Positions 48,496-51,393 of a stretch of 64,000 bases of DNA are shown here, piece after piece. The stretch comes from Pelovirga terrestris (GTDB taxonomy: Bacteria > Desulfobacterota > Desulfuromonadia > Desulfuromonadales > Geopsychrobacteraceae): positions 62,001 through 126,000 of the forward strand of contig NZ_JACWUN010000002.1 of assembly GCF_014773365.1 (NCBI RefSeq), in the 5' to 3' direction. Made by a program: the position numbers and the translations under genes. The notes below the pieces were generated by a model. It was not told the origin of the DNA and ran no database searches. It was given only the letters and a program-made list of their open reading frames with translations. Within the stretch, counting starts at the first letter, position 1. Every line of letters begins with the position of its first letter.

Positions 48496-49374
48496 ATGAA
48501 GATGTTGGTTAAATTGATTGGGCTGGTGCTGGTTCTGTTCTTGGTTGCCGGGGCAGCAGTCGTGTATTTCGGCGATACCCTGGTGCAAAAGGGGATCGAG
48601 AAGGGTGGAGAGACTGCCCTTGGGGTTCCTACCCGGGTTGGCAACGTCGACCTATCCCTGACTGGAGGGGAAGCGACGATGAACCAACTGACAATTGCCA
48701 ATCCTCCCGGATTTACAGCGCAACAGTTCCTTGTGCTTGGTCAGGCCAATATGGCGGTATCACTGAACTCCCTGCTGAGCGATACGGTGACGATCCCACG
48801 GATTGCAATCAGTGGCATACGCGTTAATCTCGAACAAAAGGGGGAAAGGAATAACGTCAAACCGTTACTGGAGAGAGCACGCAGTCTGGCCGGGGAGGGT
48901 AGCAAAACAACGGATGTCCCGGCATCGGCGAGCAAAGAAGGCGGCAAAAAGTTCATTGTTACCCACTTTTCTCTTGATGATGTTCAGGTCAATGCCAATC
49001 TCGAGGCCTTTGGCCAGAATTCGTCATTAAATCTGGTTTTGCCGAAAATTGAACTGCGTAACCTGGGGGATGAGCAGGGTGGACTGACCATGCCGGAACT
49101 GATAGAAAAAGTGGTACAGGTGATTCTGGAGAGCGCCCAAAAAAGTTCAGGGCAGTTGTCCCCCGCTCTGGCACGTTTGCTTTCAGGGGAACTTAGTGAT
49201 CTGCAGTCGCTGCAATCAGGGGTGATCGATCGCGCACGCCGGCAGGTTGACAGTTTGACCGGTGATCTTGAAGAGAGGCTACAGCTCAATGTTCCCGAAG
49301 AAGATAAAAAAATGATCGAGGAACGGGCGGGAAATCTGATCAAGGGGCTCAGTGACCGTTTGGGCGGCAATTGA
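48496..49374 (+). CDS. AsmA-like membrane-anchored protein
   Basis: The 292-residue protein has an N-terminal membrane anchor (residues 5-27) and an exported beta-rich region typical of AsmA/DUF748-like proteins: LGVPTRVGNVDLSLTGGEATMNQLTIANPPGF, NSLLSDTVTIPRIAISGIRVNLEQKG. The C-terminal 80 residues are helical. Larger AsmA proteins shuttle lipids between membranes; this short one is of unknown role. A single gene with GGAGG upstream. Confidence 0.7.
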   Translation: MKMLVKLIGLVLVLFLVAGAAVVYFGDTLVQKGIEKGGETALGVPTRVGNVDLSLTGGEATMNQLTIANPPGFTAQQFLVLGQANMAVSLNSLLSDTVTIPRIAISGIRVNLEQKGERNNVKPLLERARSLAGEGSKTTDVPASASKEGGKKFIVTHFSLDDVQVNANLEAFGQNSSLNLVLPKIELRNLGDEQGGLTMPELIEKVVQVILESAQKSSGQLSPALARLLSGELSDLQSLQSGVIDRARRQVDSLTGDLEERLQLNVPEEDKKMIEERAGNLIKGLSDRLGGN

Positions 49375-49487
49375 GATAGGTGGTAGTGTTGGTCTGAATC
49401 TGGTAGCTTTCCCGATATGTTCAGGAAAGTTACGTAACGCCTGAGATGGTGATGCGTTATTCATTATTTATTACAAGGAGACGTAAA

Positions 49488-50033
49488 ATGAAAAAGTTCA
49501 TCGTTCTGGTTTTTATCGCTTTATTTATGGTTGCCTGCAGCAACGACTCTACCGAGACAACGCAGTCCCCTGCACCGGCATCAAAACCTGCTGAAGATAC
49601 AATACAGCGGGCAACAGATACGGTTCAAAAAACTGCTGATCAGGTGGTGGAAAAGGGTCAGGAACTCAAAGATGAGGCGGTACAGTATGTAGGCAAGGCA
49701 TCTGAAACTGTTGCTGCCAAGTCCGAAGAACTTCAGGCCGGTGCGGAAAAACTTGCACAGCAGGGTAGTGATCGCTTGGCCGCTTTGGTCCCTACTGCAG
49801 CAACCTTCGATAAGGGACGTTCAATTTATCAGCAAAGCTGCCGCAGTTGTCATGATTCCGGCATTATGGGGGCCCCCAAGATCGGGCACGAACGCTACAG
49901 TGCGGACATCGAAAGATTGGTTGCGAACAGCATCAAAGGGATAGGTCGCATGCCGGCACGTGGCGGCAATCGAAATTTAAGCGATGAGGATGTGCGCGCT
50001 GCCGTTTTGTATATGGTTGAAGAGAGCAAATAA
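49488..50033 (+). CDS. Lipoprotein c-type cytochrome (c5-like)
   Basis: The 181-residue protein has a lipoprotein signal (KFIVLVFIALFMVAC), an Ala/Gln/Glu-rich coiled region (about 25-105: repeats like EKGQELKDEA, KSEELQAGAEKLA) and a single class I cytochrome c domain with CRSCH (about residue 121) and distal MPARGGN. It is a periplasmic electron carrier on a long tether. AAGGAG precedes ATG 49488. A terminator follows. Confidence 0.88.
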   Translation: MKKFIVLVFIALFMVACSNDSTETTQSPAPASKPAEDTIQRATDTVQKTADQVVEKGQELKDEAVQYVGKASETVAAKSEELQAGAEKLAQQGSDRLAALVPTAATFDKGRSIYQQSCRSCHDSGIMGAPKIGHERYSADIERLVANSIKGIGRMPARGGNRNLSDEDVRAAVLYMVEESK

Positions 50034-50079
50034 CCTGCGATAAATAAACCCAATGTTCACAAGGTTGGTTCACTGTGGG

Positions 50080-50117
50080 AACCCAAGCTCTTCTGTTTTT
50101 ATTGAGGGGCTTGGGTT
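50080..50117 (+). terminator. Terminator after the cytochrome gene
   Basis: AACCCAAGC (50080-50088) pairs with GCTTGGGTT (50109-50117), followed by TTTATT. It isolates the following selenoprotein gene. Confidence 0.7.
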
Positions 50118-50142
50118 TTTATTGCATCTAAAGGAGGTGCAG

Positions 50143-50397
50143 ATGACTATCCGCAAGAAGTTTTTTGATTTTGACTATCCGGAAGTTCTTGATATGAAAA
50201 CCCGTGAGTTGATTCGCGTCGCCTGTGCTATCGCGGTGCAATGTCCTGACTGACTCAAAAAACACTTCGCGGTCGCGAAGGAGCATGGAGCCAGTGAGGA
50301 TGAACTGCTGGAAAGTATGGCTTATGGTATGATGGCCCCGGGTGGCAAGGCGAAAAATTTTGCCAAGTCGATGTTGGAAGAGCTGGATCTGAAATAA
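50143..50397 (+). CDS. Selenoprotein of the AhpD/carboxymuconolactone decarboxylase fold (in-frame UGA)
   Basis: Reading from ATG 50143 (AAGGAGG six bases upstream) the frame meets TGA at 50251-50253 and then stays open to TAA at 50395-50397. The whole 84-residue product is one CMD/AhpD domain: MKTRELIRVACAIAVQ, then Cys34-Pro-Asp-(UGA, residue 37), LKKHFAVAKEHGASEDELLESMAYGMMAPGG. The family active site is CxxC, so UGA stands where the second Cys should be, giving CxxU. A SECIS-like hairpin lies 11 bases after the UGA. AhpD-like CxxU selenoproteins are known in this group. Role: thiol peroxidase-type redox, probable. An ordinary annotation would show only a 36-residue ORF or a pseudogene. 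Confidence 0.88.
50265..50280 (+). promoter_or_regulatory. Bacterial SECIS-like hairpin after the in-frame UGA
   Basis: CTTCGC (50265-50270), loop GGTC (50271-50274), GCGAAG (50275-50280). The stem starts 11 bases after the UGA, and the loop carries the GU that bacterial SelB recognises in apical loops such as the GGUC of E. coli fdhF. Position, size and loop all fit selenocysteine insertion. Confidence 0.75.
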
Positions 50398-50462
50398 ATA
50401 AACGAGCCCGCCCCATGCAGCAGGCTATTACTAGCCTTATGCTTTTGCTTGAAATCTGGAAG

Positions 50463-50960
50463 ATGAACGAACTGCGAAAAAATTATATGACCCCCGGCTG
50501 TGCCGAACGACTGCGTGGGGAGTTAAAACAGCTGCTGTATCAGGAGCGTCCGCAGATGGTGGAAACCGTGGCGTGGGCTGCCTCCAATGGTGATCGCTCG
50601 GAAAACGCAGATTATCATTATGGCAAAAAACGCTTGCGGGAAATCGATCGGCGGATCCGTTTTATCACCGGTCAGCTAGACAGCGCGATCATCGTTGATC
50701 CCCTCGAGCAGGGGAAAAATGCCGGCGATCGGGTGCTTTTTGGAGCAACGGTCACGGTGGAAAATGGCGATGGTGAGCAACGCTGTCTGAGTCTGGTCGG
50801 TGGTGATGAAATGGATGCAAGCCGCGGTCGTATCAGTTGGTTCTCTCCGGTCGGCAAGGCGCTTTTAGGCGCCCGCGAAGGAGATGAAGTAACCGTTCAG
50901 ACCCCTGGCGGGCGGGAAGAGCTTGACATTGTCCGGGTGGAATATTGCCCTCTTGATTAA
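50463..50960 (+). CDS. greB: Transcription elongation factor GreB
   Basis: Rescues backtracked RNA polymerase by stimulating transcript cleavage. The product of about 165 residues (start MNELRKNYMTPG) has the coiled-coil tip acidic motif NGDRSENADYHYGKKRLREIDRRIRF and the C-terminal domain with DRVLFGATVTVE and RISWFSPVGKALLGAREGDEV, which match GreB rather than GreA. A longer frame from 50415 lacks a ribosome binding site. Confidence 0.9.
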   Translation: MNELRKNYMTPGCAERLRGELKQLLYQERPQMVETVAWAASNGDRSENADYHYGKKRLREIDRRIRFITGQLDSAIIVDPLEQGKNAGDRVLFGATVTVENGDGEQRCLSLVGGDEMDASRGRISWFSPVGKALLGAREGDEVTVQTPGGREELDIVRVEYCPLD

Positions 50961-50991: not shown

Positions 50992-51393
50992 ATGACACAG
51001 AATAATCTAAAAAAAATCAGCGTGGTTATCTATCAGCGGAACTACCTGGCCGAAAAATGGCGGCAGCTGGTTAACCAGACGGAACTGGACGCTCTTTTTG
51101 TCGAGTTGAGCCAGGAGTTAACGCCCTTGGGGTTCGATTTTTCCCTGGTTAACGTGTCGGATGTGACCATGGATATCAAGGGGTACGGCGACTTGCTTAA
51201 TAGCGTTCGGTTAAGCTGCCCTGCCCATGGGATCGGCAACATATGTCTTGGCCATGTGATCGGCGCCAGTCAACATCTCAACCTGGCTGAAGATGTACGG
51301 CGTGGGGTCAATCGGGTGTGTTTTGCCCCGGAAACCATTGAGCCACAAGGCAGCGACAAGGTTGTCTGTCACAATTGCGGTTGTGGCTGTTAG
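50992..51393 (+). CDS. Hypothetical protein with a C-terminal Cys cluster
   Basis: The 133-residue product starts after AGGGAGCAGGAT. The body is soluble (VVIYQRNYLAEKWRQL, LGFDFSLVNVSDVTMDIKGYGDLLNSVRL, CLGHVIGASQHLNL) and the protein ends CHNCGCGC, a metal-binding tail like those that carry Fe-S or nickel. No family recognised. It follows greB by 31 bp, perhaps co-transcribed. Confidence 0.6.
   Translation: MTQNNLKKISVVIYQRNYLAEKWRQLVNQTELDALFVELSQELTPLGFDFSLVNVSDVTMDIKGYGDLLNSVRLSCPAHGIGNICLGHVIGASQHLNLAEDVRRGVNRVCFAPETIEPQGSDKVVCHNCGCGC

Follow-up and report, generated by a model that had tools for sequence, protein, structure and literature searches.

A probable selenoprotein gene of the known GSU3128 (distant AhpD homolog) family and its SECIS-like hairpin in Pelovirga terrestris

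A "distant AhpD homolog" selenoprotein was listed by Zhang et al. in 2006 in Geobacter sulfurreducens and "G. uraniumreducens" (PMC1794560). The table of a 2022 review contains a "Distant Alkylhydroperoxidase (AhpD) homolog" with a CxxU motif under accession AAR36519.2 (PMC9312934), and the table of a 2026 review equates the "Distant alkylhydroperoxidase (AhpD) homolog", again with CxxU, with the NCBIfam model NF041047 (PMC13188914). Since the name is shared, the three entries were taken as one family. Selenoproteins with a CMD domain or an AhpD-like CxxU were also reported in 2005 for the Sargasso Sea (PMC1088965) and in 2008 for the GOS samples (PMC2398784). The name "GSU3128" was absent from the main text of the papers, to which the literature search was confined.

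The DNA analyzed in this work (the window) is a stretch of 64,000 nucleotides, part of contig C22 in an assembly of 3.1 Mb and 47 contigs. A previous inspection of its letters and open reading frames, the sequence-only reading, proposed a hidden selenoprotein gene at 50143-50397. The gene belongs to the family introduced above, which is already known and which the sequence-only reading missed; the window copy is an ordinary member. With an AhpD-homolog selenoprotein in print since 2006 and a curated model at hand, it is for the specialist one more member of the family. The case bears out that the eye can pick a selenoprotein gene out of raw sequence, and the comparative data, namely synonymous freezing and a few stem changes on both sides, add evidence for a function of the hairpin as RNA. 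The features of the gene are as follows.

50130-50139, plus strand: Shine-Dalgarno sequence AAAGGAGGTG preceding the ATG, read directly
50143-50397, plus strand: probable coding sequence of a GSU3128-family (distant AhpD/CMD) selenoprotein of 84 residues with Sec at residue 37 (NF041047, Pfam CMD)
50206-50208, plus strand: codon of E22, opening the motif E-x11-C-x2-U-x3-H, invariant in the 34-sequence alignment
50242-50244, plus strand: TGT encoding the partner Cys in CxxU, C34, likewise invariant in that alignment
50251-50253, plus strand: TGA codon, probable selenocysteine U37 at position two of CxxU
50263-50265, plus strand: codon of H41, closing the motif, invariant in the alignment and CAC in 45 of 45 genes
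50265-50280, plus strand: putative SECIS hairpin with the 6-bp stem CUUCGC/GCGAAG and a GGUC loop, recognized by stem pairing, frozen codons and agreement with a published model

The frame contains a single in-frame TGA and is otherwise open, as stated in the sequence-only reading for both sides of this codon. The read-through product, MTIRKKFFDFDYPEVLDMKTRELIRVACAIAVQCPDULKKHFAVAKEHGASEDELLESMAYGMMAPGGKAKNFAKSMLEELDLK, carries the motif C34-P-D-U37, so that the UGA indeed occupies the place of the second Cys of CxxC. With Cys put for Sec, the Pfam CMD model matched residues 12-79 (50.8 bits, cut-off 23), and a six-frame search of the genome returned the same match with one internal TGA, plus one other CMD gene. 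Since the CMD match runs across the TGA, the two halves constitute one domain, which was also the earlier view, and the strong ribosome binding site claimed for the gene is present 5' of the ATG. The prediction that routine gene callers would report a 36-residue ORF or nothing did not hold: the mechanical caller listed a 66-residue ORF at 50053-50253 ending at the stop at 50251, and a curated full-length model exists at NCBI. This model, NF041047 "GSU3128 family (seleno)protein", matched residues 1-82 with 138.8 bits (cut-off 110), and the AhpD core domain model TIGR00778 gave 34.6 bits against a cut-off of 27.8.

Judged from its sequence, the gene is almost certainly a selenoprotein gene, its TGA being most probably read as selenocysteine. 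The whole reading, to which we give a probability of roughly 0.85, is that of a GSU3128-family selenoprotein with Sec inserted at UGA37 through SelB and the hairpin, acting as an AhpD-like redox protein. By analogy with the known bacterial pathway and in keeping with sequence and conservation, SelB would bind the hairpin 3' of the UGA and deliver Sec-tRNA-Sec to the ribosome, and reading of UGA37 as selenocysteine would yield an 84-residue protein of the AhpD/CMD fold. U37 and C34 would act as the redox pair, in which the selenolate is presumably the more reactive member, E22 and H41 may relay protons, and the protein may reduce a peroxide or a disulfide-type substrate and be re-reduced by a thioredoxin-like partner.

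The AlphaFold2 model, built on the 34-sequence alignment, reached a pLDDT of 94.3. The best Foldseek matches in the PDB were CMD/AhpD-family proteins, with TM values of about 0.6-0.7 by query length and modest E-values (best 2.3e-3, none at or below 0.001). The profile search against the PDB returned 7y4r (E 7.7e-11, 44.9 bits), 3bey and 5dik. E22, C34, U37 and H41 match E-x11-C-x2-C-x3-H, which we take to be the AhpD motif with its proton-relay spacing; position 36 is Asp in the window protein and presumably His in AhpD. An AhpD/CMD-type thiol-selenol redox function is the most likely role. The explanation that competes best, and which we consider doubtful though not negligible, keeps the selenoprotein and drops the peroxidase, making of it a general disulfide reductase or an RclX-like scavenger of oxidants. 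RclX is a scavenger of reactive chlorine-type oxidants, and 7y4r, the top-scoring sequence relative in the PDB, bears the title "Structure of RclX"; against this, the similarity of 44.9 bits is limited to the generic CMD core, and the hosts in the named-genome scan described below are for the most part anaerobes.

The AhpD-like role is one that we infer; the gene neighbourhood offers no widely conserved candidate for a partner. The window gene is surrounded by the following features.

49488-50033, plus strand: upstream gene for a putative lipoprotein with a cytochrome c (CBB3-type) domain (PF13442, 56 bits, cut-off 27)
50080-50117, plus strand: terminator-like inverted repeat AACCCAAGC ... GCTTGGGTT followed by a T-rich stretch, read directly
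50415-50960, plus strand: downstream gene for transcription elongation factor GreB (204 bits, cut-off 188)

The clusters of the cytochrome c and GreB neighbours were common to 3 of 80 other loci (the best 80 of 99 relatives). The commonest neighbour cluster, which looks like glnE, was found at 20 of these best 80 of 99, and no redox partner was apparent by eye among the clusters present in at least 8 loci (the same best 80 of 99, plus the window). The inverted repeat separates the cytochrome c gene from the selenoprotein gene and was missed by the terminator scan. With only some 25 nt between its end and the start codon, there is little room for a separate promoter. The promoter scan of 49350-50500 found none where chance would give 1.5. 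Among the 3 sites that the terminator scan did report (1.0 expected) was the SECIS hairpin, read on the minus strand. Hairpins were seen upstream of the selenoprotein gene in three congeners too. An upstream attenuator as a family feature was rejected, with 4 of 82 upstream stretches against 3 of 220 controls in a scan that counted the G086 locus twice (L063, L099) and whose loop limit missed the window's own hairpin. Two snoRNA matches to Rfam at 50000-50450, far under their gathering scores, were taken as chance. Further downstream, at 50992-51393, there is a 133-residue ORF ending in CHNCGCGC that had no NCBIfam or Pfam match at E 0.001.

The genes of the selenocysteine pathway, for which the sequence-only reading had suggested a search, are present in the genome. 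selA (583.7 bits), selB (365.8 bits) and selD (353.5 bits) each scored above the NCBIfam cut-off and lie in one run at 6678-11055 of contig C22, about 100 kb from the selenoprotein gene, and a tRNA-Sec with the anticodon TCA was located on C44 (69.7 bits, Rfam gathering score 47). The selD gene contains an in-frame TGA too, in the motif SGUAAK. The association of the family with selB was rejected as an argument, being too weak when almost every genome of the order has selB: it was matched in 42 of 45 family-positive genomes and in 114 of 136 genomes overall, and the 3 of 45 without selB above the threshold used were 59, 81 and 78 % complete.

The 6-bp stem with a GGUC loop, 11 bases past the UGA, is found where the sequence-only reading had placed it. 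The 11 bases at 50254-50264 are followed by CTTCGC (50265-50270), GGTC (50271-50274) and GCGAAG (50275-50280), and the third base of the H41 codon is the first base of the stem. According to the 2026 review (PMC13188914), the bSECIS model calls for a loop of 3-9 nt with a G in its first two positions, a stem of 4-16 bp, 16-37 nt from the UGA to the loop and an energy limit of -7.5 kcal/mol. By hand, the loop of 4 nt with its early G, the stem of 6 bp and the UGA-loop spacing of 17 nt all agree with this model. The bare hairpin has -7.1 kcal/mol, short of the limit cited there, and the 48 nt from the UGA on give -11.8 kcal/mol. By folding energy alone the window hairpin is unexceptional: a z of -1.95 was obtained for 53 nt, with 7 of 200 shuffles as good, and of -0.94 for 48 nt, with 41 of 200 as good.

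The hairpin is more than chance because it is conserved, not because of its energy. In 45 genes (one sequence with an extra TAG dropped), synonymous variation is almost absent from codons 41-46 (H F A V A K), and in a pooled set of 104 genes no other run of six codons varies as little at synonymous sites: the value is 0.065 of expectation, the median of the gene 0.90. All six stem pairs are formed in 45 of 45 genes; after sliding the partner by 1 to 3 columns, pairing was possible in at most 66.7 % of cells. Two of the six pairs have changed on both sides (45-gene and pooled sets). One went from U-A to C-G in three sequences, all of one genus, the other five being invariant in the 45-gene set, and the outermost went from C-G to U-A in two Geomonas genes (L164, L166), with the codons CAT and AAA, both synonymous; the three genes and the two genes probably stand for one event each. 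The covariation score of 0.042 was equalled by the structure slid by +1, and among 500 shuffles a pair with two-sided change occurred in 100 and further pair types in all 500. The covariation is thin, so it is the synonymous freezing that carries the argument.

Among the 104 genes the loop is GGUC in 91, GGCC in 5, GGGC in 3, CCUG in 2, GGUU in 1 and AGGU in 1, and in the remaining one, L079, the stem is broken in register. L079 can form an 8-bp stem in a shifted register, with GGCA as the loop, but 86 of 200 shuffles equalled it. The CCUG loop is without the early G, and for one of its two carriers (L074) the best fold does not contain the family stem. Among the 98 frames of the window with a single TGA, 4 of them lying mostly outside the 52 chosen ORFs and having a hairpin of -5 kcal/mol or better, this gene alone was convincing as a hidden selenoprotein.

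Read-through of the UGA independently of selenium, by a near-cognate tRNA inserting Cys or Trp with the hairpin serving as stimulator, is in our opinion very improbable. A hairpin 3' of a UGA could have such an effect. The genome, however, has the Sec machinery and carries an in-frame TGA in its own selD, the UGA replaces precisely the second Cys of the CMD CxxC, and the hairpin agrees in loop and spacing with the bacterial SECIS model. The selenocysteine reading draws its support from the presence of the sel genes, the nearly frozen hairpin codons and the conservation of the TGA.

The conservation was followed in three sets of genomes. In the order, 45 of 136 genomes were positive with 46 matches above the cut-off, and the in-frame TGA is present in 46 of 46. 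In a phylum sample of 395 genomes, 16 had a match above the cut-off, each with a single TGA (16/16), 8 of the 16 being genomes already in the order search. The scan of named genomes (Geobacter, Geomonas, Oryzomonas, Citrifermentans, Geothermobacter, Desulfuromonadales MAGs and others) placed the TGA at precisely this codon in all 80 loci (the best 80 of 99 relatives); this set overlaps the order search, many entries being the same genomes under names. The 136 loci pooled from these searches, minus the copy with the TAG, came down to 104 distinct genes, with the TGA in 104 of 104. The scripts that located the site sought C..[UC] in the order set and C..[UC]...H in the named loci, and recovered all 46 and all 80 loci with at least 50 and at least 40 identical residues of 84, respectively. 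The occurrence of the TGA at the same codon across loci rules out a sequencing error without recourse to reads, and this objection, which the sequence-only reading had raised against itself, did not materialize.

Homologues with Cys at the site, which the sequence-only reading had hoped for, were not encountered within the family: there was none among the 46 order matches, the 16 phylum-sample matches and the 80 named loci (best 80 of 99). Cys was found only in other CMD subfamilies, which score no more than about 50 bits, namely in nine phylum loci (L088-L096, 46-50 bits); the phylum matches below the cut-off that were read base by base are L083-L096. A Cys-for-Sec homologue is usual for selenoproteins, not required.

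L083-L087 are more distant CxxU AhpD-like genes of 65-71 bits (cut-off 110) with the TGA at the site and nearly the same hairpin. Three of them were scanned and reached only the cut-off of the general AhpD core domain, and the gene L087 comes after a reading frame that, by eye, resembles SelA. The context of the UGA (50248-50256 in the window) is biased, with a preceding C in 74 of 80 and a following C in 67 of 80 named loci (best 80 of 99), and codon 36 is unusually constant, being GAC in 43 genes of the 45-gene set.

These data also bear on the notion that the TGA simply ends translation, as a normal stop or through a nonsense mutation, in a gene for a short peptide or a decaying pseudogene. 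A mechanical reading does stop at 50251, and a second family copy in genome G133, with an extra TAG, may be decaying. The residues past the TGA are conserved nonetheless, with E22, C34, residue 37 and H41 invariant in the 34-sequence alignment and invariant positions reaching F73, and the TGA keeps its codon in all the distinct genes; since a decaying gene would not keep both, this notion can for practical purposes be dismissed. The G133 copy (L067, on C112) encodes a protein near-identical to that of the intact L062 in the same genome; it may be a duplicate in decay, or it may be due to the assembly. A literal carboxymuconolactone decarboxylase, as the Pfam name CMD would imply, is hardly credible given 18.9 bits for TIGR02425 (PcaC) against an equivalog cut-off of 155.7 and a redox motif invariant across the 34 aligned sequences.

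A second small family of CxxU AhpD-like proteins was noticed in the relatives (L069:1444-1758, L070-L072 and L181-L196); in the window's genome it had no match at E 1e-8. In the order, 48 of 136 genomes match it, 43 of them at E 6.9e-24 or better, with at least one TGA in frame in 42 of the 43, and the TGA is at the CxxU codon in 18 of 18 distinct genes read base by base. Its hairpin starts 11 nt past the TGA and has a 7-bp stem (6 bp in one gene), with two pairs changed on both sides, and a 3-nt loop of GU plus one base. The L069 protein stays below every NCBIfam cut-off and above that of Pfam CMD.

Genes of the second family immediately precede selA, in the same orientation, in L187, L188, L189, L190, L191 and L194, which are six of the 10 regions fetched and were picked because selB is near. 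By coordinates, the same position upstream of selA is seen at G132:C144:1480-3153, G133:C106:43661-45346 and G134:C315:5130-6861, and in 15 genomes the family lies about 1.5-1.7 kb upstream of selB. A role of the second family in selenium handling is possible. In L197 (G132:C144:1180-2100), on a contig that carries selA, its Sec codon is TTA (Leu) with the hairpin sequence kept, and the congener L198 has TGA; the TTA could be a sequencing error or a recent loss. The lack of a Cys form in the 104 GSU3128 genes and the sister family upstream of selA suggest a further idea, which we rate as a long shot: Desulfuromonadia and relatives may run a group of small AhpD-fold proteins near-obligately on Se, devoted to selenium or metalloid chemistry and not to general peroxide defence. 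Such a group might, for example, reduce selenite or guard selenide.

Of the described systems, the selenoproteins ArsM-AhpD (NF041537) and MduS (NF045649), methyltransferase fusions by their model names, have C-terminal parts that match the window protein with 38.3 bits (far under the cut-off of 510) and 34.6 bits (far under 380), respectively, whereas the window protein is a stand-alone domain. NF041238 had no match above its cut-off in the window's own genome. The proteins of the AhpD/CMD fold (TIGR00778; PDB 5dik, 1vke, 2af7 and 7y4r) share the core domain and the predicted fold with the window protein, which differs from AhpD in having, by the reading preferred here, Sec for the second Cys and in being a single domain of 84 residues. 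The window protein shares 93-94 % identity with its counterparts in two congeners and 63-85 % with the remaining 31 sequences of the alignment, and from the GSU3128 family (NF041047), which it resembles in the full-length match, the CxxU motif, size and host group, it differs in nothing of substance.
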